62,419 nucleotides of DNA, from NCBI GenBank assembly GCA_031280125.1, contig JAITHE010000004.1:1-62419 (forward strand), given 5' to 3'. Both the position numbers and the translations under genes were made by a program. Numbering within the stretch: position 1 is the stretch's first letter; each line of letters opens with the position of its first letter. Under the pieces are notes generated by a model. That model was not told the origin of the DNA, made no database searches, and was given only the letters and a program-made list of their open reading frames with translations. Source of the stretch: Treponema sp. (lineage in GTDB: Bacteria; Spirochaetota; Spirochaetia; Treponematales; Breznakiellaceae). Positions 8,861 to 48,726 of the stretch are shown here, piece after piece.

Positions 8861-9511
8861 ATGATTGACGAAGAAATTTTAACGATTGATGAGGTTGCCA
8901 AATACCTCCGGGTTTCGGAGCGGACCGTCTACGATTGGGCCCAGAAGGGGGAAATTCCCGCCGGAAAAATCGGCACGGTCTGGCGTTTCCGCAAGGCGGA
9001 AGTGGAGCAGTGGATCAACCACCGTATCTCCAATCACCGCATTAACGCCTCCTATAATGCCGTACAGGTCGAGTCCATCGTTTCCCCGGACCGGGTGCTT
9101 TTTCTCAATTATGAAACCAAGCGGGACGCGCTTATGGCCATGGCGGCAAACCTGGCCGAAGCTCCCCAGGTAAAAAACAAGCAGGAACTGGCGGAAGAGA
9201 TCCTCCGGCGGGAAGAGCTGATGAGTACCGCCATTGGCCGGGGAATCGCCATCCCCCATGTCAGGCTTAATTCGGTAACGGATCTGGTCGTTTCCGTGGG
9301 GATCAGTAAAACCGACATCCTGGACTTCCAGCCCCTGGATGATGAACCGGTCAGGCTGGTTTTTATGATAGCCGCCGCCCACAATCAACATGCCTACTAC
9401 CTCCAGACCCTCTCTTTTTTCAGCGCCCGGCTCAAAAACAAGGATCTTCGGGGTTCCCTTTTAGAAGCCCAGTCTGCTGATGAGATATACCGGCTGCTGG
9501 TAAAGGTCTAG
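8861..9511 (+). CDS. Excisionase/MerR-type HTH fused to PTS EIIA (fructose/mannitol, PtsN-like) domain
   Basis: LTIDEVAKYLRVSERTVYDWAQKGEIPAGKIGTVWRFRKAEVEQWI; GIAIPHVRLNSV active-site His. Confidence 0.9.
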   Translation: MIDEEILTIDEVAKYLRVSERTVYDWAQKGEIPAGKIGTVWRFRKAEVEQWINHRISNHRINASYNAVQVESIVSPDRVLFLNYETKRDALMAMAANLAEAPQVKNKQELAEEILRREELMSTAIGRGIAIPHVRLNSVTDLVVSVGISKTDILDFQPLDDEPVRLVFMIAAAHNQHAYYLQTLSFFSARLKNKDLRGSLLEAQSADEIYRLLVKV

Positions 9512-9769: not shown

Positions 9770-9925
9770 AAAGGCACCGGCATAGGCATGAAGGGTATGA
9801 ACCGGTGCCGTTCCTATAAAGGCTGCTAGCAGGGCAATCAGGTAAAATCTGAACGGTCCCGCCACTGTAAGGGGAATACCCCAAGTCAGAAAACCTGCTT
9901 GCGGTAACATCACTGAACACTCTAC
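9770..9925 (+). promoter_or_regulatory. Cobalamin (AdoCbl-type) riboswitch
   Basis: ggcaccgg...ccggtgcc stem; core agggcaatcaggtaaaatctgaacggtcccgccactgtaa (B12-box GCCACTG) and aagtcagaaaacctgc; boundaries approximate. Confidence 0.88.
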
Positions 9926-10171: not shown

Positions 10172-10453
10172 ATGACACAAGAAGCGTTGGGACTGGTTGA
10201 GACCAAAGGCTTGGTTGGAGCGATTGAGGCGGCGGATTCCATGACAAAGGCCGCTAACGTAACCTTGGTGGGTTACGAGAAGATCGGTTCCGGTCTTGTT
10301 ACCGTTATGGTTCGGGGAGATGTGGGCGCTGTTAAAGCCGCCGTTGACGCGGGAAGTTCCGCCGCCTCCAAGATTGGTACGGTGGTATCCACCCATGTGA
10401 TCCCGAGGCCCCACAGCGACACCGAAAAACTGATCCCCAAATCGCTCGGTTAG
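10172..10453 (+). CDS. pduA: BMC-domain hexameric shell protein (PduA/PduJ-like)
   Basis: [57 protein letters not shown]. Confidence 0.93.
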
Positions 10454-10475: not shown

Positions 10476-11261
10476 ATGAACGACAGCATGGTAAACAAAA
10501 TTATGGAAGAAGTCATGAAAAAGGTGGGGGACGCGGAGAATGTTTCCTCCGGATTTTCTTCCGGTTGCTGTGGAACAGGGATGACTGAATTTGTGGGAAC
10601 CGGCCCGGGGGACACCATTGGGCTCGTAATCGCAAATGTTGATCCTTCGGTCCATAAGGCCCTGGAGATAGACGATAAATACCGTTCCATTGGTATTATC
10701 GGCGGCAGAACCGGGGCGGGGCCCCAGATTCTGGCAGCGGACGAGGCGGTAAAGGCTACCAATACCGAAGTTATCAAAATTGAGCTTCCTAGGGACACCA
10801 AGGGTCAGGCAGGACACGGTAACCTGATCATTTTCGGCGCCGAGGATGTATCCGATGCCCGCAGGGCCGTGGAAGTTACCCTTAAGGAACTTTCCCGAAC
10901 CTTCGGCGACGTACACGCCAACGAAGCCGGTTATATCGAGCTTCAGTACACAGCCCGGGCCAGCCACGCCTGTGCCAAGGCTTTTGGAGCCCCCTTGGGT
11001 AAGGCATTTGGATTGGTGGTGGGAGCCCCTGCTGCAATCGGAGTGGTAACCGCCGATACGGTGGTAAAAGCGGCCAATGTGGACGTTCTGGCGGTATCAA
11101 CACCGGCCAAAGGAACCAGCCTTACCAACGAAGTGATCATTTTCTTTTCAGGCGATTCCGGCGCGGTCAGGCAGGCCCTTATAGCGGCCCGCGAGGTGGG
11201 CGTCGGGCTTTTGGGAACCCTGGGAAGCAAGCCCAAGAATGATTTTCCCTCATACATTTAA
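10476..11261 (+). CDS. pduB: BMC shell protein PduB (tandem BMC trimer)
   Basis: TEFVGTGPGDTIGLVIANVDPSVHKAL...GGRTGAGPQILAADEAVKATNTEV. Confidence 0.93.
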   Translation: MNDSMVNKIMEEVMKKVGDAENVSSGFSSGCCGTGMTEFVGTGPGDTIGLVIANVDPSVHKALEIDDKYRSIGIIGGRTGAGPQILAADEAVKATNTEVIKIELPRDTKGQAGHGNLIIFGAEDVSDARRAVEVTLKELSRTFGDVHANEAGYIELQYTARASHACAKAFGAPLGKAFGLVVGAPAAIGVVTADTVVKAANVDVLAVSTPAKGTSLTNEVIIFFSGDSGAVRQALIAAREVGVGLLGTLGSKPKNDFPSYI

Positions 11262-11276: not shown

Positions 11277-12938
11277 TTGAAATCAAAGCGATTTGAGGTT
11301 CTGGCCAAGCGTCCTGTTAACCAGGATGGCTTCGTAAAGGAGTGGCCGGAAGTCGGTATGATGGCAATGAACGGTCCCAACGATCCTAAGCCCAGTATTA
11401 AAATCGAGAACGGGCGGATCGTGGAGATGGATGGCAGAAAAAGGGCGGACTTCGACATGATCGAAACCTTTATTGCCAACTATGCCATCAACCTTGAAAA
11501 CGCGGAGAAGGTCTGCGGTATGGATTCCAGGAAACTGGCCTTTATGCTCTGCGACCCCTGCGTCAAGCGGGAAGAAATCATTCCCCTCACCACTTCAATG
11601 ACCCCCGGTAAAATTTGCGAAGTTCTGGGGTACATGAATGTTGTGGAAATGATGATGACCCTGCAGAAAGTCAGGGCTCGCAAGACCCCCTCCAACCAAT
11701 GCCACGTTACCAACGTAAAGGACAATCCGGTCCAGATCGCCGCGGACGCTGCGGAAGCGGCTATTCGCGGATTTGACGAACAGGAAACCACCGTTGGTAT
11801 CGCCCGGTACGCCCCCTTCAACGCCATGTCTATTCTCATCGGCTCCCAGACGGGTCGGCCCGGTGTTCTTACCCAGTGCGCTGTAGAAGAAGCCACAGAA
11901 TTGGAACTGGGTATGAAAGGATTCACCGCCTATGCCGAAACCGTATCGGTTTATGGCACTGAACCGGTATTTGTTGATGGGGATGACACTCCCTGGTCGA
12001 AGGCGTTCCTGGCATCTTGCTACGCCTCCCGAGGGCTCAAGATGCGGTTTACCTCTGGTACGGGGAGTGAAGTACAAATGGGCTACGCCGAAGGAAAGTC
12101 CATGCTCTACCTGGAAGCCCGGTGCGTATACGTTACCAAAGGCGCCGGGGTTCAGGGCCTTCAGAACGGATCGATCAGCTGTATCGGCGTTCCCGCGGCC
12201 GTACCTTCGGGTATCCGGGCGGTACTGGCGGAAAACCTAATCACCTGCCTTCTGGACCTGGAAGTGGCATCGGGTAACGATCAGACCTTCTCCCATTCGG
12301 ACATGAGACGCACGGCCCGCCTTATGATGCAGCTCCTTCCCGGTACGGACTTTATTTGTTCCGGGTTTTCCGCTGTTCCGAACTACGACAACATGTTCGC
12401 CGGTTCTAACGTGGATGCCGAGGACTTTGACGACATCAATGTGATCCAGCGGGACCTGATGGTGGATGCAGGGCTCAAGCCCGTTTCGGAAAACCAGGTG
12501 GTGGCGATCCGGAACAAAGCCGCCAAGGCACTGCAGGCAGTATTCAAAGAACTGGGGCTTCCCGCCATTACCGACGGGGAAGTCGAGGCGGCTACCTATG
12601 CTCACGGTAGCAAGGACATGCCCGACCGGGATGTGGTGGCGGATCTTAAGGCTATCAGCGAAATGATGTCCCGGGGAACCACCGGTATTGATTTTGTAAA
12701 GGCCCTCGCCAAAAACGGATTTACCGATGTAGCGGCGGCGGTACTAGGTATGCTCAAAGCCCGGGTTGCCGGCGACTATCTGCATACTTCGGCCATATTC
12801 ACCAAGGATTTCAAGTGCATAAGCGCCGTCAATGACGTGAACGACTATGCCGGGCCGGGTACAGGGTACCGCATCAGCAAAGAGCGCTGGGAGGTCATTA
12901 AGGATATTCCCAACGCTATCGACCCGCAGACGATTTAA
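11277..12938 (+). CDS. pduC: B12-dependent propanediol/glycerol dehydratase large subunit
   Basis: [40 protein letters not shown]... characteristic of PduC/DhaB1. Confidence 0.96.
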
Positions 12939-12949
12939 GGAGGACGCTT

Positions 12950-13633
12950 ATGGAAATCAATGAAGCGTTGATACGGCAAGCGATAATTGAGGTGCTCAAG
13001 AACTACAGTCCCGGTGAAATCCCTGTGGGCGGGGGTTCTTCGGGAGGCGGAAACCCTTCCCGCAGCAGGGAGGGCAGCTCCGAGGCCGCCGATATCCTGC
13101 TTGAGGAAAAAGGGCCTGCCGGTACCGGACCAAAAGACGAAGTGGTTGTGGCTTTGGGCCCAGCCTTTGGCGCCTACCAGTTCAATACCATCGTGGGGAT
13201 CCCTCACGGCCAGGTTTTGAGGGAAGTGCTGGCCGGCATAGAGGAAGAGGGAATGAAGGCCCGGGTGGTCCGGTTTTTCCGTTCTTCTGATATAGCCGCC
13301 TTTACATTGGAAGCTGCGAAACTTTCCGGTTCCGGCATTGCCGTGGGAATCCAGTCACGGGGGACCACGATTATCCACCAAAAGGATCTACAGCAGTTGT
13401 CCAATCTGGAACTTTTCCCCCAGGCTCCCATTATTGACCTGCCCACATACCGGGCCATAGGGAAGAACGCGGCAAAGTACGCCAAAAACGAGTCGCCCAA
13501 CCCGGTGCCGACCAAGAACGACCAGATGGCCCGTCCCAAGTACCAGGCCATAGCGGCCCTACTCCACATCAAGGAAACGGAGCATGTGGACGCCAACCGC
13601 AAGCCTGTGGAGCTTTCGGTTAAATTCAAATAA
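12950..13633 (+). CDS. pduD: Diol/glycerol dehydratase medium subunit with N-terminal targeting-like helix
   Basis: [56 protein letters not shown]. Confidence 0.94.
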
Positions 13634-13643
13634 GGGGCTCAAA

Positions 13644-14156
13644 GTGGATCAATCAACACTGGAAAAGATTATTCGGGATGTGATTTCGGGGATGGAAAGC
13701 AGTTCAGGACCCCGGCGCCAAACGGGGGGGGGTAACAGTGGCAGGATAACGGCAGTGGATTATCCCCTGGCTGAAAAAAGCGCCAGCAAGCTTAAAACCC
13801 CCACGGGGAAAAGCTATGGGGAGATTACCCTTGACACTGTGATGAACGGGGCCATTGGATCCCAGGATGTAAGGATTGCTCCGGAAACCCTGGAAATGCA
13901 GGCCCAGGTAGCCGAATCCATTGGACGGAAAAACCTGGCCGGCAATTTCCGGCGGGCGGCAGAACTCATCGCTGTTCCCGACCAGCGGCTTCTGGAAATT
14001 TACAACGCTCTCAGGCCCTATCATGCCACCAAACAGGAACTGCTGGCCATTGCCGATGAACTTGAAAACAAGTACAACGCTAGGGTTTCCGCCGCCCATG
14101 TTCGTGAAGCGGCAGAGGTGGGAGAAGCCCGAGGCAGGCTGAAGAAGGTTACCTAG
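13644..14156 (+). CDS. pduE: Diol/glycerol dehydratase small subunit (GTG start)
   Basis: VDQSTLEKIIRDVISGM; DYPLAEKSASKLKTPTGKSYGEITLDTVMNGAIGSQDVRIAPETLEMQAQVAE. Confidence 0.93.
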   Translation: MDQSTLEKIIRDVISGMESSSGPRRQTGGGNSGRITAVDYPLAEKSASKLKTPTGKSYGEITLDTVMNGAIGSQDVRIAPETLEMQAQVAESIGRKNLAGNFRRAAELIAVPDQRLLEIYNALRPYHATKQELLAIADELENKYNARVSAAHVREAAEVGEARGRLKKVT

Positions 14157-14159: not shown

Positions 14160-15977
14160 ATGATCATCGCTGGGGTTGATATTGGCAACGCTTCCACAGA
14201 GACCGCCCTTGGTTCCTTGGAGGGGAATGGGGTAAGGTTTCTGGCATCGGGTATCGTAGACACTACAGGTATCAAGGGAACGCTGCAGAACATCCACGGT
14301 GTATTTGCCTCTATAAAACAGGCTGCGGACAAAACCGGTATCCCGGTGGAGGATATCGGCTTTGTCAGCCTCAATGAGGCTACCCCGGTGATCGGCGATG
14401 TGGCAATGGAGACCATAACTGAAACCATCATCACCGAATCAACCCTGATTGGTCATAATCCCCATACCCCCGGCGGGGAAGGCATTGGTAGCGGCATTAC
14501 TATCCCCATCAGGGAAATTCCCGGTACTGGGGTGGGCAGGGATTACATCACGATCATAGACGGTTCTGTGGACTATGAAGAGGCGGCAGCCGTTATCAAC
14601 GACGCCGTTAAACGGGGGGTGGGAATCAAGGGCGCCATAGTTCAGCGGGACGATGCGGTCCTTATTGTAAACAGGCTTGCAAGGCCCATCCCCGTGGTGG
14701 ACGAAGTAAAATTTATTGAAAAAGTACCAGCCGGCATGCCGGCGGTGGTTGAAGTGGCCAGGGCAGGGGGTGTTGTGGAGATGCTTTCCAATCCCTACGG
14801 TATCGCTACGGTTTTTGGGCTGGACCCGGAAGAAACGAAATTCATCGTACCCATTGCCCGGGCCCTTATTGGTAACCGTTCTGCGGTGGTAATTAAAACT
14901 CCCGCAGGAGATGTAACCGAAAGGATTATTCCCGCGGGAAAACTACAGATCATAGGAGAGACAAAAACCATCGGTGTCGATATCGAGGCCGGATCGGAAG
15001 CGATCATGAAAGCGGTTCTTGAGGCGGCGCCCGTGGCCGATGTTAAGGGTGAAGCGGGGACCAACGTCGGCGGTATGCTTGAGCGGGTCAGGCAGACCCT
15101 TTCAAATTTAACAGACCGCCTTCCCGGGGACATCAAGATCCAGGATCTTTTGGCGGTGGACACCTTTAACCCCCAGAAGGTTTCGGGGGGGGTAGCGGAG
15201 GAATTCTCCATGGAAAACGCCGTGGGATTGGCCGCTATGGTTAAATCTGACCGTCTCCAAATGGACATGATTGCCCGGGAACTCACTGAGCAGATGAAGA
15301 TCAACGTGGGTGTGGGAGGAATCGAGGCCGATATGGCAATTCAAGGCGCCCTAACTACACCGGGGGTAACCAGTCCGCTGGCTGTTATTGATATGGGTGC
15401 TGGTTCCACCGATGCTTCTATCATCAAAAAAAACGGCGGCGTGAAGTCGATACATCTGGCCGGTGCGGGCAACATGGTTACGCTGCTGATCCAAACCGAA
15501 TTGGGACTCGATTCTTGGGAAATTGCCGAGGATATAAAACGTTATCCCCTGGCCCGGGTCGAAAGCCTCTTTCATATACGGCATGAAGACGGGACGGTGG
15601 AGTTTTTTAAAGAGGCTTTACCGCCCAGTACCTTCGCCAGGACCATTTTGATCAAAGACAGGGCCTTTGTTCCTATTCCTATCAGTGCCTCCATTGAAAA
15701 AATAAGGACGGTGAGGAAAGAGGCGAAGGAAAAGGTTTTTGTTACCAACTCCCTCAGGGCATTAACCATGGTAACTGAGACCGGTAACATTCGGGAGATT
15801 GATTTTGTGGTACTAGTGGGCGGGTCGGCGCTGGATTTTGAGGTTCCTCAGCTTGTAACCGACGCCCTTTCCCGTTATGGAATCGTAGCTGGCAGAGGTA
15901 ATGTCCGGGGAATTGAAGGGCCCAGGAACGCCGTTGCCACCGGGCTGGTTTTAAATTACAGGAGGGAACATGCTTAG
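14160..15977 (+). CDS. pduG: Diol dehydratase reactivase ATPase large subunit
   Basis: MIIAGVDIGNASTETALG...; AVIDMGAGSTDASII; 605 aa. Confidence 0.95.
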   Translation: MIIAGVDIGNASTETALGSLEGNGVRFLASGIVDTTGIKGTLQNIHGVFASIKQAADKTGIPVEDIGFVSLNEATPVIGDVAMETITETIITESTLIGHNPHTPGGEGIGSGITIPIREIPGTGVGRDYITIIDGSVDYEEAAAVINDAVKRGVGIKGAIVQRDDAVLIVNRLARPIPVVDEVKFIEKVPAGMPAVVEVARAGGVVEMLSNPYGIATVFGLDPEETKFIVPIARALIGNRSAVVIKTPAGDVTERIIPAGKLQIIGETKTIGVDIEAGSEAIMKAVLEAAPVADVKGEAGTNVGGMLERVRQTLSNLTDRLPGDIKIQDLLAVDTFNPQKVSGGVAEEFSMENAVGLAAMVKSDRLQMDMIARELTEQMKINVGVGGIEADMAIQGALTTPGVTSPLAVIDMGAGSTDASIIKKNGGVKSIHLAGAGNMVTLLIQTELGLDSWEIAEDIKRYPLARVESLFHIRHEDGTVEFFKEALPPSTFARTILIKDRAFVPIPISASIEKIRTVRKEAKEKVFVTNSLRALTMVTETGNIREIDFVVLVGGSALDFEVPQLVTDALSRYGIVAGRGNVRGIEGPRNAVATGLVLNYRREHA

Positions 15978-16320
15978 CCAAACGGCGGTTCCTTCCATAA
16001 AATTATACGCCAATTCTGACTTGGAAAGTCCGGAATTGGTACAAGAAATACTTTGCGGGGCCGAGGAAGAGGGGGTACCCTGCGAATTGGATGCCTCCGC
16101 GGAGGGAGCGGCGGTAGTTCTGGCATTCAGGGCCGCGCTTGATTCGGTTCTGGGGGTAGGTATTGGCATAGACAGCAAAGGAACCGCCGCTGTGCATTAC
16201 AGTAAACTACCGGAAAACAGCCCTCTCTTTACGCTGAATTACCGGATTGACGGCGAAAAACTGCGAGGTCTGGCCTCGAACGCCGCACGGCTTGTGAAAG
16301 GTATGCCCTTTGTACTGTAA
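15970..16320 (+). CDS. pduH: Diol dehydratase reactivase small subunit
   Basis: [33 protein letters not shown]; overlaps the pduG stop. Confidence 0.88.
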
Positions 16321-16337
16321 GGGCTTTGGAGGTTTGT

Positions 16338-16841
16338 ATGACAGGAAATGCGTTGGGGTATATTGAAGCCGTCGGTTTGACTGCAGCGGTGGAAGCGGCG
16401 GATGCCGCAGTAAAGTCTGCCAATGTCAGGCTTTTGGGTTACGAGCTTGCCAAAGGAGACGGAATGACAACAGTAAAGATCGCAGGCGACGTGGGGGCGG
16501 TAAAATCTGCCGTAACTGCCGCCGCTGCCGCCGCCGGCAAAGTTGGCCGGGTCGTTTCGATCCATGTGATACCCCGGCCGGCGGCGGGAACCGAGAAGAT
16601 AACCATGAGCCGGGATACGGTGGGGCTTAAGAAATCTCCCGTTGGGACCGAGGCTCCCAGGCCGGAACCAAAACCAGAACCGCCAAAGGTTCCAAAACCA
16701 GCCGCCGACCCTGTCTCCACCCCCGAAACCGCGAGAGCGTCCGAGGAAGATGCAAAGACACCGGAGGAGTCAAAGAAACACCGGGGACAGCCCAAAAAGG
16801 CCGGCAAGCAAGAAGGGCTTGAGTTGAAAATTAACGGATAA
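16338..16841 (+). CDS. pduK: BMC shell protein with long Pro/Glu/Lys-rich C-terminal extension (PduK-like)
   Basis: BMC domain [26 protein letters not shown]... then ~75-residue low-complexity charged tail. Confidence 0.8.
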
Positions 16842-16846
16842 GAAAT

Positions 16847-17497
16847 ATGGATCAGCAAAGTCTAAGAAAACTGATAGAGGATACAATTCTTCATGTTCAG
16901 AATGTTCCCTATGTTATCACCGGTGTGTCCAACAGGCACATACATCTTTCCCGGCTAGATATGGATACCCTTTTTGGACCAGGTCATGAACTGACGCCGG
17001 TTAAGGATCTTTTGCAGCCCGGCCAGTATGCATGTAAAGAAACGGTCAGCGCCGCCGGTCCCAAGGGAAGGATCAATAATATCCGGATTTTAGGCCCTGT
17101 CCGGGGAGAAACCCAGCTTGAGCTTTCCATGACCGATACTTTCAGTCTGGGCGTTTCCTGTCCCATAAACGAGTCGGGAAACCTCGATAAAGCCGGCAGG
17201 ATCAGGATAGAAAATCCCGTCATGGGAACTTCCATCGAAAAAAACTGCGGTATCATAGCCCTGCGGCATGCCCATCTAACGCCGGAAACGGCGCGAAAAT
17301 TCAACCTTCGGGACAAGCAATTTGTGTCTCTGGAATATGGTGGAAAACGGGGGATCCGCTACGGCGGCGTACTGCTCCGGGTTTCAGATCGTTTTTGTGA
17401 TGAGATTCACTTGGATACCGACGAGGCAAATGCTGGGGCTGTAAAGAACGGAGATATGGGAGTGATTGTTCCATTAAAAGGACGCCATGACGTTTGA
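16847..17497 (+). CDS. pduL: Phosphate propanoyltransferase PduL
   Basis: VPYVITGVSNRHIHLSRLDMDTLFG.GHELTPVKDLLQPGQYACKETV; HAHLTPE. Confidence 0.94.
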   Translation: MDQQSLRKLIEDTILHVQNVPYVITGVSNRHIHLSRLDMDTLFGPGHELTPVKDLLQPGQYACKETVSAAGPKGRINNIRILGPVRGETQLELSMTDTFSLGVSCPINESGNLDKAGRIRIENPVMGTSIEKNCGIIALRHAHLTPETARKFNLRDKQFVSLEYGGKRGIRYGGVLLRVSDRFCDEIHLDTDEANAGAVKNGDMGVIVPLKGRHDV

Positions 17498-18110
17498 GGA
17501 TCTGATAAAAATTATCGTTGAGGCCGTAACCAAGTATCTCTTTTTGGAACGGCGAAAGGTCTTGGCCCTCTGTTTTGACGGAGAAAACAAAACGGAACTT
17601 ATGGAAGCGGCCCAATCCATAAACGGCAGAGCGGATTATTTTTCCGGTGGCGACATTGAAAAGATAAATGGGGATTACGACGTGATGTTTGTAGATTACA
17701 TGCCCCTTTCCGGACTGGCGGAAGCCGCTTTGGGGCTGACCATCAGTCCCTGGGGCAGGCTGATGGGAACCATGCTTATCCGGGGCAGGACTGTTTTTCA
17801 ATTGAAAAAAGCGCCAGAAAGCGGGGATATCACTCCGGCCTACTTGGAACTGTTAAGGGCCTATTGGACCCAACTCCACAAATTGGGAGTGGTATTTCTG
17901 AATTCCGGGATAGGAAGGGTGTCCGGTAAAACCGGGGAGGCACCGGTTTTAGGGAAAAAAGATGTATATATAAAGAATGTACTGTCCCGGCAGGACCTTA
18001 TGGCCTACGTCGGTACGGACAGGCTCTTGGTCGGCAGGGATGTTCTGGTTACTGCTTTGGCGGCTGATACGGCTAGGGCCATGAAAATAAACATAGTAAA
18101 ACAGAAATAG
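17487..18110 (+). CDS. pduM: PduM-like microcompartment protein
   Basis: Position between pduL and pduN; MTFEDLIKIIVEAVTKYL N-terminal helix; overall PduM-like pattern but divergent. Confidence 0.55.
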   Translation: MTFEDLIKIIVEAVTKYLFLERRKVLALCFDGENKTELMEAAQSINGRADYFSGGDIEKINGDYDVMFVDYMPLSGLAEAALGLTISPWGRLMGTMLIRGRTVFQLKKAPESGDITPAYLELLRAYWTQLHKLGVVFLNSGIGRVSGKTGEAPVLGKKDVYIKNVLSRQDLMAYVGTDRLLVGRDVLVTALAADTARAMKINIVKQK

Positions 18111-18119
18111 GAGAAATGT

Positions 18120-18386
18120 ATGCTGATGGGAATAGTCAAAGGTATGGTGGTTTCCACCCAGAAAGATGAACACTTGGTAGGAACTAAATTGCTGGTTGTC
18201 CAGGCGGTTGATTCCTCCCATAAGCCTCTCCGGGACGAAGAGGTGGCGGTGGATGCGGTGGGCGCCGGGGTAGGGGAATATGTTCTGCTCTGTCAGGGCA
18301 GTTCTGCCAGGAATGTGTTTAACGATCCCAAGATGCCGGTGGATCTGGTGGTGGTGGGTATTATCGATAAACAACCGGAAGATTAG
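18120..18386 (+). CDS. pduN: EutN/CcmL-type BMC vertex protein (PduN)
   Basis: MGIVKGMVVSTQKDEHLVGTKLLVVQAVD...DAVGAGVGEYVLLCQGSSARN. Confidence 0.93.
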   Translation: MLMGIVKGMVVSTQKDEHLVGTKLLVVQAVDSSHKPLRDEEVAVDAVGAGVGEYVLLCQGSSARNVFNDPKMPVDLVVVGIIDKQPED

Positions 18387-18405
18387 GACTACGGAGAGGC
18401 GTGAA

Positions 18406-19410
18406 TTGAATATTTTTACCAAGCGCGGCGATGCCGGTAAGACCTCGCTCTACGGCGGAAAAGAAGTTTTCAAGGACGATCTACGAGTTTGGTGTTACGG
18501 TACCGTTGACGAACTTAACAGTGCCCTTGCCATGGTTCACGCTTTTTTGGAATTCGATGATCTTAAGGCTGTTGTCAGGGATATTCAAAACAAACTTTTT
18601 GTCGTTGGGGCGGAACTGGCTAGTGATGAGAGCCAGCGGAGGAAAAACGAGTCCCGTATAAATGAAGAAGATGTGGCATACCTTGAAGGGATAATCAGCG
18701 GATACACGGAAGAATTCGGCAGGGTAACAAATTTTTCCCTGCCCGGAGAAACCCCCGTATCTGCTATGTTCCACTTTGCCAGAACCATTGTACGGCGGGC
18801 AGAACGGCATACGGTAAGCCTCTCAAGGGAGGAAGAAGTATCGCCGGTTCTTCTTAAGTATCTAAACAGGCTTTCCGATACCCTCTTTGTCCTGGCCAAA
18901 ATAGAGGTGTACAAAAGTTTTATCAAGCGGGTGGTAGACAAATTGGGGGAACTAACAGGGAGAACTGGTGTGATTCTAGGCGGTGTGGAGCCGGAAGAGG
19001 CGGTTTTTTGCCCGGAACTCTGCGACCGGCTTCGGGATGCAGCGGCTAGAGAAAGCGTTAAAATAGGCGTACCTGTTTCACTGGCTATTGCCGACGGAGG
19101 GGGGAATCTTTGTTACTTCTACCGTATGCCCGGCGCCTCTTTGGTAAGTTTGGGGATTGCCCAGAACAAGGCCTATACCGCCGTTGCCATGAAACAGCCC
19201 ACGGGGAATTTGTACGATTTGGCGCTGCCCGGAGGAAGCCTGCATGGACTTAACACGGCAGATCCCAGGCTAGTGGTTTTTGGGGGCGGATTCCCCCTTT
19301 TTGCGGGTGGCAGGCTGACAGGGGGCGTTGGAATATCAGGCGGATCTGTCCCTGAGGATGAACAGATAGGCGGACGGGTTGTGGCCGAATTCGAAGCCCA
19401 ATTCAAGTAA
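18406..19410 (+). CDS. pduO: Cob(I)alamin adenosyltransferase PduO with C-terminal GlcG/HbpS-like domain (TTG start)
   Basis: NIFTKRGDAGKTSLYGGKEVFKDDLRVWCYGTVDELNSALA; C-terminal AIADGGGNLCYFYRMPGASLVSLGIAQNKAYTA. Confidence 0.92.
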   Translation: MNIFTKRGDAGKTSLYGGKEVFKDDLRVWCYGTVDELNSALAMVHAFLEFDDLKAVVRDIQNKLFVVGAELASDESQRRKNESRINEEDVAYLEGIISGYTEEFGRVTNFSLPGETPVSAMFHFARTIVRRAERHTVSLSREEEVSPVLLKYLNRLSDTLFVLAKIEVYKSFIKRVVDKLGELTGRTGVILGGVEPEEAVFCPELCDRLRDAAARESVKIGVPVSLAIADGGGNLCYFYRMPGASLVSLGIAQNKAYTAVAMKQPTGNLYDLALPGGSLHGLNTADPRLVVFGGGFPLFAGGRLTGGVGISGGSVPEDEQIGGRVVAEFEAQFK

Positions 19411-19428
19411 GATAGCGGAGGAAAAACT

Positions 19429-20808
19429 ATGGCTGGGGATGTTGATGTCTTGGTTAGGCAAGTAATGGAAAAACTTCAAAATGGAGGGAAGGCCGGCTCT
19501 GCGGGGATCTTCAAAAATATGAACGACGCGGTGGAAGCCTGTGCCCGGGCCCAGAAGGAATATGTAAAACTCAGCCTAACGGCTAGATCGCGAGTTATCG
19601 ATGCCATCCGTAAGGTGATTTACGATAATGCCGAAGAACTTTCTCGCCTTACCGTGGAAGAAACAAAGATGGGAAACTATGAAGACAAGATCGCAAAAAA
19701 CCGGTTGGTAGCGGATAAGACCCCCGGTGTAGAGGATCTTAAATCCGAGGCCATGACAGGAGATAGCGGCCTTACTTTGATAGAACTTTCTCCCTTCGGG
19801 GTTATCGGGGCCATTACACCCACCACCAACCCTACGGAAACCCTCTTTTGTAATTCTATAGGTATGCTGGCCGCCGGAAACGGCGTAGTTTTTTCTCCCC
19901 ATCCTACCGCTAAAATGGTATCCCTTAAAACAATTACCCTGATTAACCGGGCGATTACCGCCTCCGGCGCTCCGGCCAATCTGGTTACCGCCGTGGAGAA
20001 CCCTACCTTGGAACAGACTAACGCCATGGTGTCTCATCCCAAGGTAAACCTCTTGGTAGCAACCGGCGGTCCTGGCGTGGTAAGGGCGGTTCTTTCTTCC
20101 GGAAAAAAGGCCATAGGGGCCGGGGCGGGGAATCCTCCGGCGGTAATCGACGAAAGCGCCAATATCGAAAAGGCGGCGGTGGACATTATCCGGGGTTGTA
20201 GCTTTGACTACAACCTGCCCTGTGTCGCCGAAAAAGAGGTGATTGTGGAAGAAAAGGTGGCGGATTACCTTCTTTTTTGTATGAAGGGCAGCGGTCTTGC
20301 CCACATTATTGAGGACCGATCCGCATTGAGGCGGCTTGAAGAACTGCTTTTGGCCGCGGACACGCCGAACAAAAATTTTATAGGCCGTTCCCCCCAGGTG
20401 ATAGGCGAAAGCGTTGGCCTTAGGGTTGACGAAAAAATCAAGGTCCTCTGCATGGAAGTTCCTTTTGAACATCCCTTTGTCCAGCATGAATTGATGATGC
20501 CCGTGCTTCCCATTGTAAGGGTAAAGGATTTTGATGAAGCCATGAAAAAAGCGATTGAGGTTGAGCATGGTTACAGGCATACGGCGATCATGCACAGCCG
20601 TAATGTGGAACATCTTTCTGCCATGGCAAAAGCGATACAGACTACCATCTTTGTCAAGAACGCTCCCTCCTATGCGGGTATCGGTGTGGGTGGTGAGGGC
20701 CATACCACCTTTACCATTGCAGGACCGACCGGAGAAGGGCTCACCTCGGCCAAGACCTTTACCCGGAAGCGCCGTTGTGTGTTGGCGGATAGCTTTAATA
20801 TCAGGTAG
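19429..20808 (+). CDS. pduP: CoA-acylating propionaldehyde dehydrogenase PduP
   Basis: DVDVLVRQVMEKLQ targeting-like helix; GVIGAITPTTNPTETLFCNSIGMLAAGN; CVAEKEV. Confidence 0.95.
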   Translation: MAGDVDVLVRQVMEKLQNGGKAGSAGIFKNMNDAVEACARAQKEYVKLSLTARSRVIDAIRKVIYDNAEELSRLTVEETKMGNYEDKIAKNRLVADKTPGVEDLKSEAMTGDSGLTLIELSPFGVIGAITPTTNPTETLFCNSIGMLAAGNGVVFSPHPTAKMVSLKTITLINRAITASGAPANLVTAVENPTLEQTNAMVSHPKVNLLVATGGPGVVRAVLSSGKKAIGAGAGNPPAVIDESANIEKAAVDIIRGCSFDYNLPCVAEKEVIVEEKVADYLLFCMKGSGLAHIIEDRSALRRLEELLLAADTPNKNFIGRSPQVIGESVGLRVDEKIKVLCMEVPFEHPFVQHELMMPVLPIVRVKDFDEAMKKAIEVEHGYRHTAIMHSRNVEHLSAMAKAIQTTIFVKNAPSYAGIGVGGEGHTTFTIAGPTGEGLTSAKTFTRKRRCVLADSFNIR

Positions 20809-20825
20809 TATAAGATAGGAGTACC

Positions 20826-22166
20826 ATGAGTTTGCTGGATAATATATTTGCCGCAGGTATAGTCGGTGAAGGGGGCGCAGGATTTCCCACCCACATCAAG
20901 CTGAACTGCAAAGTGGAGTACCTTCTCTTGAACGCCGCCGAATGTGAGCCCCTTTTGCATACCGATAAATATATCCTGAGGAATTTTTCAGATAAGATTC
21001 TGGAAGCCCTTGAAGCAAGCGCCGCCTTTATTGAAGCATCGCAGATAGTTATTGCCGTTAAAGGGGTAAACACCACCGAAATCTCTGCCCTTGAAAAGGC
21101 TATAGCCGAAAAAAAATCCACCGTCAGGATTTTTAAGCTGGACAATTACTACCCCGCTGGAGATGAGCAAATGCTGATTTACGACGTTACCGGCCGGGTG
21201 GTGCCTCCGGGACAAATACCCCTCAAGGTGGGGGCTGTAGTTTCCAACACCGCCACCATGCTGGCCATTTTCGATTCCCTTTCCGGCAGACCCGTAACCC
21301 ACAAATTTATTACCGTTGCTGGCAGAGTAAACAGACCGGCAGTACTGAAGGTTCCTATTGGTACGAGTTTTGCCGAATGTATCGCCGCCTGCGGAGGATC
21401 AGCGCAGAAAGACTACAATATTGTCAACGGTGGACCCATGATGGGGAAAGTATACCCAGGCGGAGAGGAAAAAAAACTTTCCGTTACCAAAACCACCTCG
21501 GGAATCCTCGTCTTTTCTGGCAGGGATAACTTTATCGCCCGAACCGGGACTCTTTCGGTCAGACAGATCCTTTCCCGGGCTAAAGCGGCCTGTATCCAGT
21601 GTTCTTTCTGTACCGATCTTTGTCCCCGCCGCCTCATCGGCCACAGTCTGCATCCCCACAGGATCATGCGCAAAATGGCCATGCTGGATTTTAACAAACC
21701 CCTGGAGGCGGACGATGTTTTACAGGAAGCTTTGATCTGCTGCGAATGCGGCATATGCGAAACCTTTGCCTGTCCCATGGATCTTTCTCCTCGGCAGGTA
21801 AATAAATACGTCAAATCACAGCTAAAGGGGGGGGGATTTGAACAGCGAACCCCGCTGGATCCCTCTCCCCAGCGGGGTTACCGAAAGATCGCCCCTCAAA
21901 AAATTATGGCCCGTATGGGGCTTCTGGGTGAGTACGATACATGGAACGAGCGCTACTTGGAGCTAAACCCCGGCATGGTGAGGATTCCTTGCGCCCAACA
22001 TATAGGGGTCCCCGCTATACCAGTGGTCGCTACAGGGGATCACGTTGAATGCGGCCAGCTTGTCGCCAGAGCGGTGGAGGGCAGGCCAAGCGCCAATATT
22101 CATGCCAGTATTGCCGGACGCGTCGTCTTGGCGGATTCGGTAATTGTTATTGAAGGGGGATCCTGA
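20826..22166 (+). CDS. pduS: PduS, RnfC-like Fe-S cobalamin reductase / electron-transfer protein
   Basis: GIVGEGGAGFPTHIK; CIQCSFCTDLCP and CECGICETFACP [4Fe-4S] motifs. Confidence 0.93.
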   Translation: MSLLDNIFAAGIVGEGGAGFPTHIKLNCKVEYLLLNAAECEPLLHTDKYILRNFSDKILEALEASAAFIEASQIVIAVKGVNTTEISALEKAIAEKKSTVRIFKLDNYYPAGDEQMLIYDVTGRVVPPGQIPLKVGAVVSNTATMLAIFDSLSGRPVTHKFITVAGRVNRPAVLKVPIGTSFAECIAACGGSAQKDYNIVNGGPMMGKVYPGGEEKKLSVTKTTSGILVFSGRDNFIARTGTLSVRQILSRAKAACIQCSFCTDLCPRRLIGHSLHPHRIMRKMAMLDFNKPLEADDVLQEALICCECGICETFACPMDLSPRQVNKYVKSQLKGGGFEQRTPLDPSPQRGYRKIAPQKIMARMGLLGEYDTWNERYLELNPGMVRIPCAQHIGVPAIPVVATGDHVECGQLVARAVEGRPSANIHASIAGRVVLADSVIVIEGGS

Positions 22167-22711
22167 TGGATTCAATTGGCTTTTTAGAGCTTTCAAGCAT
22201 AGCCGGGGGAATCGAAATTGCCGATGCCATGCTCAAAACCGCCCAAGTTGATTTGATTTTTGCCAAGGCATCCTGTCCCGGAAAGTACTATATATTGACG
22301 TCCGGCCAAGTTTCCAATGTGGAAAAGGCGGTGCAGAAGGGCGTATATATGGGCAAGGGCTTTATGGTGGCCTCCCTGGTTCTGCCCCGGGTTCATCCCC
22401 AGGTTATAAAGGCCATTAACCAGTCGGTGATGCCGGAAAAACCCGCCGCCATCGGCGTAATGGAATTTTATTCGGTGATGAGTTCCATCATGGCGGCGGA
22501 TACGGCGGTTAAATCCGCCAATGTGGACCTGGTAGATCTGAGGCTTGGTACGGGCATAGGCGGAAAAAGCTTTGTGGTGCTTACCGGTGATACCGCGGCG
22601 GTGGAATCGGCGGTGGCCAGCGCAGTAAGGCCCCAGATGGGTAGCGGTATGCTGGTAAACAAAATTGTAATTCCCAATCCGCGGAAAGAACTTATAGCGA
22701 GCCTTTATTAG
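22166..22711 (+). CDS. pduT: BMC shell protein PduT (tandem BMC, Cys in CPGKY loop)
   Basis: SIGFLELSSIAGGIEIADAMLKTAQVDLIFAKASCPGKYYILTSGQ. Confidence 0.93.
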   Translation: MDSIGFLELSSIAGGIEIADAMLKTAQVDLIFAKASCPGKYYILTSGQVSNVEKAVQKGVYMGKGFMVASLVLPRVHPQVIKAINQSVMPEKPAAIGVMEFYSVMSSIMAADTAVKSANVDLVDLRLGTGIGGKSFVVLTGDTAAVESAVASAVRPQMGSGMLVNKIVIPNPRKELIASLY

Positions 22712-22735: not shown

Positions 22736-23083
22736 GTGTTTGAGGAAAAACAAAGAATCATTCAGGAATATGTTCCCGGCAAGCAGATAACTCTTGCTCA
22801 TTTGATTGCCAATCCTGCCCCTGGGCTCTACAAAAAACTGGGAGCGGTGGATGTGGAGTTGGGCGCCCTAGGGATTATGACGATTACTCCAGGGGAAGGG
22901 GCTATTATCGCCGCCGACATTGCCTCAAAATCGGCCCGGGTAAATCTTGTATTTGTGGATCGTTTTTCCGGTTCCCTGCTTCTGAACGGAGATGTTTCCA
23001 GCGTGGAATCCGCCCTGCGGGAAATTATCCAGGTTCTTGAACGCACCCTGCGTTTTACTCCCGCCCTTATCACCAAAACATAA
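22736..23083 (+). CDS. pduU: BMC shell protein PduU (permuted BMC; GTG start)
   Basis: [23 protein letters not shown]...[25 protein letters not shown]. Confidence 0.92.
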
Positions 23084-23092: not shown

Positions 23093-24343
23093 ATGGACTA
23101 TCGCGATCTTGATCCTGAAAAGCTTAAACGCTATATCGCAAAAGAGACCTCTCTGTTTCCCGGGGATATGGATTTTTCCGTAAGCGAGATAGGGCGGAAT
23201 GAATTTGAGGGTGACGGTTACGTCAACTATATTTACCGAATCTGTTCCCGGGATGGAAAATCCCTTATCGTAAAACAGGCAAAACCCTACTTCAAGTATT
23301 TCGGCAGGGACAGCGGCTTTCTTCCGGAGGATCGCAACAGTTCTGAAGTTGATATAGGTCTTATCCGCGCCGCCATTGTTCCCCGGTATGTTCCCAAAAT
23401 ACTTCATTTTGACAAGGACAATTTTCTCTATATCGCAGAAGACTGCGGGCATCTTGACATTATGCGGTTCGGGCTTTCCCGGGGACGACGCTATCCTGAG
23501 TTTCCCCGGATGATGGGAGAATTTATAGCGAAGTGCCATTTTTATACTTCGGAACTGTACCTGGATCAATGTCTCCATAAGGAACTAGGCCGACGCTTTA
23601 CCAGCCCTGAGATGAGCAGAATAATGGAGGTTATCCTGTTTCTCCGGGAACCCCTTATTGCAGGGCTTGATGAAGGGGAAGCCGATCCGGTACACAAGGA
23701 CATAGCCAATTCTTTCTGGAACAAAAAAAATGCCAAGGTTGAACTGTTAAAACTTAGGGATCTGTATATGAAAAAACAGGAATGTCTTGTCCACGGGGAT
23801 CTCCATACCTCCAATACGATGGTTTCTGGCGGCGAGATGAAGATTATTGATATGGAATATACCCACCTGGGGCCCTTTTCCTCCGATTCAGGATACCTTT
23901 TGGGAAACTTGGTCTATACCTACGATACCTGGTTCTACCATGACGAGTGGACAGAGGAAGAGCGTTTCCGTTACCGGGAAGAGATCCTTTCCTACATCAC
24001 CGGAACCCTTAGGGAATATATCCGGGTTTTTTCCGAATGCTGGGACAGGGATGTAAAAAGCTTTTTCCGTCCTTACCCCGAATATCGGGCAAGTCTTTTT
24101 GCCGGTTACCTTAGGGAGACCGCAGGTTTTATGGGATCCCAGATATGTTCCCGGATAGGGGCTTTAGCGGAAACCTTCGATTTTGACGTGATCCTTGACC
24201 GGGAAAAACGCAACGAAGCCCGGGCCATGGCCATAAGTACCGGTTATGCCCTTATTATGAGGCGCGATGAAATAATGGAACCGGAAGATATTGCGGGAAT
24301 AGTCAGGGGTTGCGCGGAGACCTTTCGCCGGCTGCGAATATGA
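23093..24343 (+). CDS. Methylthioribose-kinase (MtnK/DrdK)-family sugar kinase
   Basis: GDGYVNYIYRICSRDGKSLIVKQAKPYFKYFG; CLVHGDLHTSNTMVSGGEMKIIDMEYTHLGPFSSDSGYLLGNLV; aligns by eye to MtnK. Confidence 0.85.
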   Translation: MDYRDLDPEKLKRYIAKETSLFPGDMDFSVSEIGRNEFEGDGYVNYIYRICSRDGKSLIVKQAKPYFKYFGRDSGFLPEDRNSSEVDIGLIRAAIVPRYVPKILHFDKDNFLYIAEDCGHLDIMRFGLSRGRRYPEFPRMMGEFIAKCHFYTSELYLDQCLHKELGRRFTSPEMSRIMEVILFLREPLIAGLDEGEADPVHKDIANSFWNKKNAKVELLKLRDLYMKKQECLVHGDLHTSNTMVSGGEMKIIDMEYTHLGPFSSDSGYLLGNLVYTYDTWFYHDEWTEEERFRYREEILSYITGTLREYIRVFSECWDRDVKSFFRPYPEYRASLFAGYLRETAGFMGSQICSRIGALAETFDFDVILDREKRNEARAMAISTGYALIMRRDEIMEPEDIAGIVRGCAETFRRLRI

Positions 24344-24807
24344 AGGAAAGCCCAAAACTGCTGGTCGCGGGCCCGGTATTTTCGGGAAAAACCACCCTTT
24401 GCCGGAACCTCGCGAATCTTCCCCAGGTATATGTAAAAACCCACGCGATAGAAATTGTGGGAAACGCTATTGACACTCCGGGGGAATACATTGAAAACCG
24501 GTGCCTTTGGCACCGCCTTAAGGTAACCTCTTGCGACGCAGAGCTTGTGCTTTTTTTGCAAGACGCTGTTAACCTCAATTTTTATTTTGTTCCCGGGCAG
24601 GCATCCATGTTCAATTGCCCTGTGGCGGGGGTTGTTACCAAAAAGGATCTTGCCGGGCCCGCCGCTTTGGAGCAGGCGGGGGAACTCTTGACCTTGGCCG
24701 GGGCTTCTCCTTGTTTCACCGTTTCCCTTTTATCGGGGGAAGGGATGGACGTATTGAGGGAATTTATTGCTTCCAGGCTTGCTCCCCGCCAGGGCGGACG
24801 GGAATGA
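24340..24807 (+). CDS. pduV: PduV/EutP-like P-loop NTPase
   Basis: LLVAGPVFSGKTTLCRNLANL; THAIEIVGNAIDTPGEYIENRCLWHRLKVTSCDAELVLFLQDA. Confidence 0.85.
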   Translation: MKESPKLLVAGPVFSGKTTLCRNLANLPQVYVKTHAIEIVGNAIDTPGEYIENRCLWHRLKVTSCDAELVLFLQDAVNLNFYFVPGQASMFNCPVAGVVTKKDLAGPAALEQAGELLTLAGASPCFTVSLLSGEGMDVLREFIASRLAPRQGGRE

Positions 24808-25463
24808 AGCAGCCGGAGGTTCTTTTCGAAGATCCCTTCCTGCTTGTTTTGAACAAGCCCGCAGGACTTTCCGTCCAGGGAGGACAGGGGGCAGGGCTGG
24901 CGCTGGATTCCCTTCTGGCCCGTCTTTATAAACCCAGGCCCCTATTGGTTCACCGGCTTGACAGGGATACCTCCGGGGTAATTGTTACGGCCAAGACCAG
25001 GGAAGCCGCCGCGGCCTGCGCCTCCCTCTTTACAGGAGGGGCAGGGATGGAAAAACATTATCTGGCCCTGTGCGCGGGGAGCCTGGATAAAAAGGGCAGG
25101 GTGGAAAAAAGTCTCCAGGTAAAAGGCAGGGAACGGGAAGCACTGACCTGCTACGTCCGGCGGGCCTATTCCCGAAGGCTGGACTGTTCACTGGCGGACA
25201 TGGAACCCGCCACGGGAAGGATGCACCAGATCCGCCGCCACCTGGCTGCCCTGGGCCGCCCCATACTGGGGGACGGCAAGTACGGCGACTATGGCCTTAA
25301 CAGGGAATTAAAAAAAAAGACAGGCCTCAAGCGGCTCCTTCTCCATGCCTTGTCTATCCGTTTTCCCCATCCCCTGGGAGGGGGTGTGGTGGCGGCGGAG
25401 GCTCCCCTGCCGGATCATTTTACGGATTTTCTGGAACAGGCGGGGATTGCATTGCCCAGGTAA
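24804..25463 (+). CDS. RluA-family pseudouridine synthase
   Basis: LLVHRLDRDTSGVIVTAKTREAA; TGRMHQIRRHLAALGRPILGD; ATGA overlap with the upstream stop. Confidence 0.9.
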   Translation: MKQPEVLFEDPFLLVLNKPAGLSVQGGQGAGLALDSLLARLYKPRPLLVHRLDRDTSGVIVTAKTREAAAACASLFTGGAGMEKHYLALCAGSLDKKGRVEKSLQVKGREREALTCYVRRAYSRRLDCSLADMEPATGRMHQIRRHLAALGRPILGDGKYGDYGLNRELKKKTGLKRLLLHALSIRFPHPLGGGVVAAEAPLPDHFTDFLEQAGIALPR

Positions 25464-43134: not shown

Positions 43135-43163
43135 TTGACAAACGATGGAAAGTGATATATGAT
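43135..43163 (+). promoter_or_regulatory. Sigma70-type promoter TTGACA-N17-TATGAT
   Basis: ttgaca aacgatggaaagtgata tatgat, upstream of the PTS operon. Confidence 0.8.
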
Positions 43164-43208
43164 AAATCCCTCCGAAACGAAAAAGGAGCTAGGGAGATTG
43201 AAACCACG

Positions 43209-43697
43209 ATGAAAATAGAAGATATCCTCAAAGAGGATTGCATCATTGAACACCTTGAGGCGTCGTCCAGGGAAGAGGCTTTGACGGCCATGTGCCGGAC
43301 GCTGCTTTCCAAGGGCTATGTAAAAGAAAGTTTTCCCGCGGCGATCCTGGAACGGGAACGGCTTTACCCCTCGGGGCTTCCCATGGAGGGCCATAAAATC
43401 GCCATCCCCCACTGTGATTCGGAGCATGTAAACCAATCGGCAATTCTCTTTGCCCGGCTTGCCCGGCCTCTGGAATTTTGCTCCATGGGGGACCCGGAGG
43501 AAAAACTCCAGGTTCAGCTTATCTCCATGTTTGCCCTGGCGGAAAAAAAGAAGATTGGTTTTTTGCTGGAGGTCCTGATCACCGCCTATTCCAGCAGCGA
43601 AGTGCTGGATTCCATCCTTCGTGCCCCTTCGGCGGCGGCAATCTACGGTATCCTTCGTAAAGCCGTGGGGGATCAAATGAAGGACGAAGAGGCATAA
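43209..43697 (+). CDS. PTS EIIA (galactitol/fructose type)
   Basis: MEGHKIAIPHCDSEHVNQSA active-site His. Confidence 0.9.
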   Translation: MKIEDILKEDCIIEHLEASSREEALTAMCRTLLSKGYVKESFPAAILERERLYPSGLPMEGHKIAIPHCDSEHVNQSAILFARLARPLEFCSMGDPEEKLQVQLISMFALAEKKKIGFLLEVLITAYSSSEVLDSILRAPSAAAIYGILRKAVGDQMKDEEA

Positions 43698-45430: not shown

Positions 45431-45447
45431 CTTTTTTCAGTTTTTGC

Positions 45448-45476
45448 TTGACAGGTCCGGAAAAGAGGCGGATACT
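45448..45476 (+). promoter_or_regulatory. Candidate internal promoter TTGACA-N17-GATACT ahead of EIIB
   Basis: cttgacaggtccggaaaagaggcggatacttag. Confidence 0.55.
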
Positions 45477-45531
45477 TAGAAGCTTATCGCGTACCGGTCA
45501 GGTTCGGAAGATACTTTTACAGGAGTTTAGA

Positions 45532-45816
45532 ATGAAAAGAATTATGCTGGCTTGCGGAACGGGAATTGCCACTTCCACGGCGGTTAATGTAAAACTCACT
45601 AGAATCCTCCATGAACGGGGGTATGAAGGTAAATTTAAAATTACCCAGTTTAAAATAGGGGAAGTGGTGGCAAATTCATCGAACTATGATTTTTGTGTGG
45701 CAACAACCCAGGTTCCTCCGGGCGCGCAGTGTCCGGTAATTATGGGGATTCCCTTTCTAACCGGCATCGGGATGGAACCGGTGATAGACAAGATTATAGC
45801 TGAACTGGAAAAATAG
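45532..45816 (+). CDS. gatB: PTS EIIB, galactitol-type
   Basis: IMLACGTGIATSTAVNVKL. Confidence 0.92.
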   Translation: MKRIMLACGTGIATSTAVNVKLTRILHERGYEGKFKITQFKIGEVVANSSNYDFCVATTQVPPGAQCPVIMGIPFLTGIGMEPVIDKIIAELEK

Positions 45817-45866
45817 AAATCAAAACCTTTCCATGGCGGTAAGGTTTATTTTTAGGAGGCAATGTT

Positions 45867-47246: not shown

Positions 47247-47284
47247 GGTTCTGTGATAAAGGGCAGATCGTTTTTCTTGCGGGC

Positions 47285-47328
47285 AAAAACATCCGCCATT
47301 TCCGTCGCGGAAACGGCGGATGTTTTTT
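47285..47328 (+). terminator. Strong Rho-independent terminator after gatC
   Basis: aaaaacatccgcc-a-tttccg-tcg-cggaaa-c-ggcggatgtttttt. Confidence 0.88.
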
Positions 47329-47356
47329 GGTTCCAGGAGGAGGGGCATCCAGCGTC

Positions 47357-47944
47357 ATGAAAAAGGAATACATATACGATCCAAAACGTTACTTTATGCA
47401 GATTACCCTTATTGGATGGTTTTGCGTAGCGGTTTTTCTTTTAAGCCTTTTTATGATTGGATTTAGTTCCAACCGCCCCCTTTTTTTTCTGGCTGCCCTG
47501 GCCGCAGCTTATACGGTGTGGAATACTTTTTTGTCCGGATCCAATCCAAATAAAGTAATTCTGGAAGAAGACGGCATCTCCTTTGAATCCTATGGGAAAA
47601 GGATCAAGTATCCCTTCAGCGGAATCACCGTGTTTTTGGTAAAGGATTTCCGCGGTTCCGGTAAAATATTTTTGAGAATAAACAGGCATAATTTGTTGCG
47701 GGGCCGATTTTGGATACATACCCGTGAATTTAACGATTCGGAAGAATTGTTTCTATATCTTTTAAAGCTGGAATACCAAACCCATCCGGACGGCCTTAAG
47801 GCCCGGGCCTGGGATTCTACCAGGCCGGATGTTGACAAAAGGCCGGTATTACCCTGGCATCTTCCGCCGGCGGAAAAACAGCAAGACCACGGGCAGGGGA
47901 AGGTCCGGAAATCCGACGATGGAGGCGCTGAAAGTGAAATTTGA
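47357..47944 (+). CDS. Hypothetical membrane protein (two TM helices plus PH-like C-terminus)
   Basis: KKEYIYDPKRYFMQITLIGWFCVAVFLLSLFMIGF... Confidence 0.6.
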   Translation: MKKEYIYDPKRYFMQITLIGWFCVAVFLLSLFMIGFSSNRPLFFLAALAAAYTVWNTFLSGSNPNKVILEEDGISFESYGKRIKYPFSGITVFLVKDFRGSGKIFLRINRHNLLRGRFWIHTREFNDSEELFLYLLKLEYQTHPDGLKARAWDSTRPDVDKRPVLPWHLPPAEKQQDHGQGKVRKSDDGGAESEI

Positions 47945-48617: not shown

Positions 48618-48620
48618 ATG

Positions 48621-48726
48621 GACTTGTTCGCTAACCCGGTTGGTTATCGAACAAGGCTTGCAAAATGTTGCACATTTTGCTGTTTTTAGCGGAATTTGTT
48701 CGGAAACTGAGGTTTCCGAACAAGTC
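48621..48726. repeat. Triple-hairpin intergenic element bounded by 10-bp inverted repeat gacttgttcg/cgaacaagtc
   Basis: Hairpins at 48623-48655, 48660-48680 and 48696-48723 read directly. Confidence 0.85.

Follow-up and report, generated by a model that had tools for sequence, protein, structure and literature searches.

Why would a protein resembling methylthioribose kinase (MtnK) be encoded in the middle of an operon for a bacterial microcompartment (BMC) and its B12-dependent diol dehydratase? The question is raised by a 416-aa kinase in the window, i.e., the whole 62,419-nucleotide stretch of Treponema DNA analysed here. The preliminary description had placed the kinase gene inside the BMC operon, and that assignment stands: the open reading frame is real, 9 bases separate the pduU stop from the kinase start, and the TGA of the kinase overlaps the ATG of pduV (24340). 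Gaps do not exceed 24 bases anywhere from pduA (10172) to pduV (24807), and the set comprises pduABCDEGH, a BMC-H gene, pduL, a pduM-like gene, pduN, pduO, pduP, pduS, pduT, pduU, and pduV. With PduCDE, PduGH, PduP, PduL, and shell proteins all encoded, the locus is a PDU-type microcompartment operon. The features of the window are the following.

9786-9916, + strand: cobalamin riboswitch, 5' of the pdu operon (Rfam RF00174, 34.5 bits versus a gathering score of 31.5)
10172-10453, + strand: pduA-like BMC shell protein (from sequence; 89-93% identity to pduA of relatives)
10476-11261, + strand: pduB shell protein (NF011944 and TIGR04501 above cut-off)
11277-14156, + strand: pduCDE, B12-dependent diol/glycerol dehydratase (NF011979, NF011616, and NF011972 above cut-off)
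14160-16320, + strand: pduGH, dehydratase reactivase (TIGR04491 above cut-off; pduH assigned by position and as a relative of the PduD family)
16326-18386, + strand: BMC-H gene, pduL, pduM-like gene, and pduN (BMC-P)
18280-22166, + strand: pduO, pduP, and pduS (Pfam matches; the true start of pduO is probably after 18386)
22166-22711, + strand: pduT-like trimeric shell protein (TIGR02526, 142.6 bits; two BMC domains)
22736-23083, + strand: pduU/eutS-like shell protein with a GTG start at 22736 (NF012012, 120 bits; BMC domain)
23093-24343, + strand: MtnK-fold kinase of the dehydratase-linked clade (416 aa; HGDLHTSN at 234-241, DME at 253-255, S353-R354)
24340-24807, + strand: pduV/eutP (PF10662, 131.9 bits; TIGR02528, 122.7 bits)
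24804-25463, + strand: RluA-family pseudouridine synthase, end of the co-directional run (TIGR00005, 142 bits)
57002-57751, − strand: mtnP, MTA phosphorylase, at a separate locus (TIGR01694, 272.6 bits versus a cut-off of 274.85)
57753-58367, − strand: class II aldolase adjoining mtnP (PF00596, 49 bits)

Two genes at the borders of the operon deserve mention. The start of the RluA-family gene (24804-25463) overlaps the pduV stop, and it may share a transcript with the microcompartment operon. Directly 5' of the pdu operon, positions 8861-9511 encode a fusion of an excisionase-type HTH with a PTS EIIA domain, a possible sugar-status regulator with 87% identity in the relative G084.

The presence of the kinase gene in the operon is not due to chance, since the gene also accompanies pdu genes in related species and in other phyla. 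A neighbourhood survey of pdu loci placed the kinase (K) at pduU/pduV in four relatives, in the orders U-K-V (G084), T-K-U-V (G062), K-U-V (G090), and K-V (G111). The order is K-U-V in Christensenella, U-V-K-K in Lachnospiraceae, S-T-K in Propionibacteriaceae, and S-T-K-adh-B-C-D-E in the cultured Ilyobacter polytropus (Fusobacteriota; kinase gene ILYOP_RS11995), where the clade motif was checked; the S-T-kinase order recurs in Ilyobacter, Propionibacteriaceae, and G062. Spirochaetota, Fusobacteriota, Actinomycetota, and Bacillota all have pdu operons that hold members of the clade, and at two loci the kinase is followed by an AraC regulator and then by a BMC shell gene. A scan of GTDB genomes for the kinase clade yielded 80 loci, and a BMC or pdu gene lies within 3 kb of the kinase in 14 of them, when about 1 would be expected under a rough chance model; this count leaves out L106, whose match is a 20%-identity non-BMC aldehyde dehydrogenase.

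Most Acetobacterium, Eubacterium, and Synergistaceae genomes have the kinase among unrelated genes. A shared metabolic neighbour outside pdu loci was sought and given up, as the neighbours in these three groups (uppP, a nitroreductase, and a fetAB-like ABC system in Acetobacterium), named by eye from the sequences, look unrelated. Riboflavin genes near two kinase copies (L080 and L105) were put down to coincidence. Several Lachnospiraceae loci (L120, L121, L123, L132, and L134) carry tandem kinase copies, two or three after pduU-pduV, and a genome of this family may hold up to six copies (G612 is among the multi-copy cases).

The preliminary description linked the kinase to a B12-dependent diol dehydratase, and this link is borne out at the level of whole genomes. 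The large subunit of the dehydratase (PF02286) is encoded in 41 of 50 carrier genomes, with the kinase gene mostly elsewhere and far from it. In three of the nine PF02286-negative carriers (L109, L125, and L132), pdu genes adjoin the kinase, and we therefore ascribe the absence of PF02286 there to assembly gaps. Among 200 genomes of the family to which the window belongs, PF02286 was detected at cut-off in only four, all of which possess the kinase (Fisher p 2e-7, uncorrected for the relatedness of the genomes); in G082, the kinase and PduC lie on different contigs. Likewise, PduC is found in 3/3 Lachnospiraceae carriers versus 19/295 non-carriers (p 3.5e-4, again uncorrected for relatedness) and in 0/11 Lachnospiraceae with canonical MtnK only. 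Related species are among the genomes counted, and part of the co-occurrence reflects joint transfer of the kinase and the operon. The relation is one-way: 19 of the 22 dehydratase-positive Lachnospiraceae are without the kinase, which is therefore not needed for the dehydratase pathway.

What kind of protein is the kinase? Its match to TIGR01767 (S-methyl-5-thioribose kinase) spans the whole protein (E 1e-78), and the only PDB sequences that match it well are the MtnK proteins of B. subtilis and Arabidopsis. An AlphaFold2 model (pLDDT 91.1) submitted to Foldseek returned MtnK structures as all of its 15 best PDB matches (E 1e-22 to 1e-27; TM 0.80-0.89), followed by the tryptamine kinase PsiK. 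Since these three lines of evidence all point to MtnK, the predicted fold and the mechanism class, an APH-type ATP-dependent phosphotransfer, can be considered secure, and in fold the protein is MtnK-like, as first described. Its TIGR01767 score, 265.2 bits, is nonetheless below the curated equivalog cut-off of 275, when a true MtnK scores 488.9 bits; other clade members fall on both sides of the cut-off (260.8, 272.3, 305.4, and 308.5 bits).

A tree of 64 clade rows and 23 canonical proteins (mtnK products encoded beside mtnA, MtnK-MtnA fusions, and B. subtilis MtnK) placed the clade on one side of a single branch, with an SH-aLRT of 100, apart from canonical MtnK. An independent survey of 298 Lachnospiraceae gave two score classes, 476-544 versus 232-279 bits. 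The clade was sampled with two search patterns that cover residues 231-238 and 249-255, and conservation within these segments is therefore partly imposed by the sampling; positions 43, 240, 241, and 353 are outside both patterns. At 240-241, all 85 clade members sampled have Ser-Asn where canonical proteins have Gly-Ser, and position 241 is Asn in 85/85 clade members versus Ser in 31/32 canonical proteins. A catalytic-loop Ser in place of the Mg-binding Asn is a signature of MtnK (PMC4702295). The G-loop, GXGNXN in MtnK (PMC2194712), reads GDGYVN in the window kinase, and 81 of 82 clade members carry Y or F at position 43, where MtnK has Asn. The first arginine of the MtnK RR motif, called strictly conserved, hydrogen bonds with both O2 and O3 of the ribose of methylthioribose (MTR) (PMC2194712). 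This residue, at position 353, is Arg in 32/32 canonical proteins, and for the 85 members of the clade the residues listed are S (45 cases), F (19 cases), G, A, and I, without any R. The window kinase has Ser353-Arg354, and the second RR arginine, Arg354, is kept in the clade. A semi-conserved W-loop Trp was dropped as a clade marker because canonical proteins without this Trp also exist.

The remainder of the catalytic apparatus is intact. Lys61, Asp236, Asp253, and Glu255, which correspond to the ATP lysine and to the catalytic HGD and DXE motifs of MtnK, are kept in the clade, and their retention together with Arg354 predicts an active enzyme. The clade is, judging from its residues, distinct from canonical MtnK and absent from public family models as a family of its own; the TIGR01767-type model mixes two clades with different predicted active sites. 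The loss of the O2/O3-contacting arginine, the changed signature residues, and the score under the cut-off leave the initial assignment of the kinase to the MtnK/DrdK type without support.

These differences bear on the substrate. The preliminary description proposed that the kinase recycles 5-deoxyribose: 5'-deoxyadenosine from inactivated coenzyme B12 (or from radical SAM enzymes) would be hydrolysed, the sugar would be phosphorylated, and the 1-phosphate would pass through MtnA and a class II aldolase to DHAP and acetaldehyde, the latter being oxidised by PduP. The MtnK fold, the tight tie to a B12 enzyme whose inactivation gives 5'-deoxyadenosine, the occurrence of MtnA in 44 of 50 carrier genomes, and the fact that DrdK takes 5-deoxyribose and MTR about equally (PMC6079011) are all consistent with such a role. 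However, the MtnK-type active site was the main support of this model, which is weakened by its loss, above all by that of the arginine that contacts the sugar O2 and O3, and we now regard the model as unlikely. The operon holds neither a nucleosidase nor an isomerase, and a DrdK-style cluster, with an MtnA-type isomerase and a class II aldolase, was not found within it. The lack of an isomerase gene in the window, pointed out at the outset, extends to the genome (77% complete), in which a search for MtnA found none. The nearby mtnP and class II aldolases had been taken to fit the recycling route. The mtnP-aldolase pair does exist, but since, going by the enzyme families, MtnP would convert 5'-deoxyadenosine directly to the 1-phosphate, it suggests a route without any kinase; the other two class II aldolases (47829 and 48750) follow a galactitol-type PTS and not the pdu operon.

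The context of mtnA in carrier genomes points in the same direction. In Eubacteriaceae and in the relatives of the window genome (mtnA-aldolase-mtnP in G090), mtnA adjoins mtnP, whose product needs no kinase to form the 1-phosphate, whereas it is fused to canonical MtnK in Lachnospiraceae and paired with one in Geosporobacter, Anaerosolibacter, and G082. Canonical MtnK-MtnA thus exists in addition to the clade kinase in Geosporobacter, Anaerosolibacter, several Lachnospiraceae, and G082, which makes the clade kinase an extra paralogue there and argues against its being the 5-deoxyribose kinase. A literature search returned no paper joining 5-deoxyribose with microcompartments or adenosylcobalamin, and no DHAP-shunt MtnK turned up when E. 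coli was searched by DNA similarity. Overall, the substrate is probably not the 5-deoxyribose first proposed. The two PTS-linked aldolases belong to a separate cluster (43152-49868), in which genes for EIIA, EI, IIB, and a galactitol-type IIC precede them; one is nearest to ribulose-phosphate epimerase/fuculose aldolase models and the other to RhaD-type fusions.

The cobalamin riboswitch upstream of the operon raises the alternative that the kinase serves cobalamin assembly, as an analogue of the pdu L-threonine kinase PduX or as an aminopropanol kinase; amino-alcohol kinases belong to the same fold superfamily, and the Salmonella pdu operon carries pduX. Examination of CobD makes this role highly improbable. 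CobD-like scores in carriers form two groups, >240 bits versus <200 bits, and about 13 of 48 carriers are in the lower one, i.e., without a CobD-like protein. They include two well-assembled, kinase-positive genomes, G111 (99% complete; best score, 149 bits) and G084 (91% complete; 157 bits), although the window genome does hold a CobD-like protein (266 bits). CobD-less carriers have no consumer for threonine phosphate, which disfavours a threonine kinase, and a PduX-like function was set aside on these grounds. A protein substrate within the microcompartment, for instance PduU or PduV, whose phosphorylation would regulate the shell or its movement, might explain why the kinase repeatedly adjoins pduT, pduU, pduV, and lone shell genes and why it has the Mg-binding Asn of protein kinases. 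This idea also seems improbable, as the nearest structures are small-molecule kinases and many copies are distant from all shell genes.

We consider it reasonably probable that the protein, with its MtnK fold, actively phosphorylates a small molecule with ATP, probably in the cytosol, and that it represents a separate clade whose carriers almost all possess an AdoCbl-dependent diol/glycerol dehydratase. This reading builds on the predicted fold, on catalytic residues that are intact, on the separation of the clade, on its place in operons of several phyla, and on its co-occurrence with the dehydratase across genomes. Lys61, Asp253, Glu255, and probably Asn241 would bind ATP and magnesium, and Asp236 would activate a hydroxyl of the substrate. 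The changes at the active site suggest that MTR and 5-deoxyribose are not bound in the MtnK manner, and that the substrate either has no ribose O2/O3 pair or does not present it to an arginine. The substrate is most likely a compound other than MTR, within diol-dehydratase metabolism: the kinase may phosphorylate a hydroxyl of a small metabolite that either enters dehydratase or microcompartment metabolism or escapes from it (a deoxy-sugar, a polyol, or a by-product), and thereby trap this metabolite in the cytosol for further breakdown. Alignments inspected by eye revealed no encapsulation-peptide-like extension at either end of the kinase, and its product is therefore presumably cytosolic.

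A narrower form of this small-molecule kinase reading, which we hold to be possible, places the kinase in the catabolism of a sugar or polyol that feeds the diol dehydratase, e.g., a 6-deoxyhexose derivative. Several diverged copies per Lachnospiraceae genome are in line with it, as is the presence of a cupin-AraC regulator next to the kinase at three loci (Pfam-checked in L128 only). The variability of residue 353 suggests substrate diversification, and with multiple copies the substrate may differ among subclades. Nevertheless, no transporter, isomerase, or aldolase is adjacent in a consistent way. We also tentatively propose that the clade represents a new enzyme activity, in which ATP-dependent phosphorylation serves to remove or salvage a specific by-product of the AdoCbl-dependent diol/glycerol dehydratase. 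If so, the by-product would derive from the cofactor or from the diol, and its phosphorylation would be a step missing from present Pdu schemes and common to anaerobes of at least five phyla.

How does the clade relate to known systems? With MtnK (TIGR01767; 2PUN, 2OLC, and 2PYW) it shares the whole-length fold, the ATP lysine, the catalytic aspartate, DXE, and the second RR arginine, whereas the first RR arginine is missing, the G-loop N is replaced by Y/F and the catalytic-loop Gly-Ser by Ser-Asn, and the genomic tie is to diol dehydratase rather than to mtnA. DrdK is likewise an MtnK relative, and both kinases could touch 5'-deoxyadenosine waste, but DrdK belongs to a kinase-isomerase-aldolase cluster and the window kinase does not; this comparison is one of gene context. 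Beaudoin et al. (2018) described DrdK-DrdI-DrdA without mention of B12 or microcompartments (PMC6079011). The window locus resembles PDU loci of the Salmonella, Listeria, and Acetobacterium types in its pduA-V set, with B12-dependent PduCDE, PduGH, PduO, PduP, PduS, and shell genes, and differs from them by the MtnK-fold kinase between pduU and pduV; a term search of two BMC catalogues (PMC4207490 and PMC8217296) turned up nothing on a kinase of this sort in PDU loci. A phosphotransferase is likewise described as encoded in the RMM-type locus (PMC4207490), which is another BMC type. In Acetobacterium woodii, Awo_c26590, annotated as methylthioribose kinase, directly follows pduU-pduV2 and was judged by the authors to be unrelated to BMC function (PMC7593272). 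By its annotation and its position adjoining pduU and pduV, it is a candidate member of the clade, and our survey suggests that its dismissal be revisited.

The novelty is the linkage of a separate kinase clade to B12-dependent diol dehydratase and pdu operons. In bacteria of the gut and in acetogens (Anaerobutyricum hallii, Acetobacterium, Eubacterium, and Ilyobacter), a gene read as one of methionine salvage is tied instead, across phyla, to propanediol/glycerol metabolism and hints at a further reaction in a bacterial organelle that is among the best studied. Because the MtnK model mixes two clades, annotation-based reconstructions of methionine salvage would be wrong for some such genomes.

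The survey also brought to light a different BMC locus, common to two families of the spirochaete phylum (L068, 4504-16493, in G013, and L204, 3275-12367, in G524); a term search through the text of the 2021 BMC catalogue did not turn it up. Its genes encode a ribose-type ABC transporter, a BMC-P triplet, MtnA, DeoR, a class II aldolase, and a kinase of the true MtnK type (489 bits in G013), to which the G013 locus adds BMC-H, BMC-T, and an aldehyde dehydrogenase resembling PduP. Such a set suggests an encapsulated DHAP shunt that would convert 5-deoxyribose or a similar sugar to DHAP and an aldehyde. Lastly, MtnK-MtnA fusions of ∼800 aa occur in Lachnospiraceae and relatives (L194, L196, L202, and L203), and in L203 a class II aldolase adjoins the fusion.
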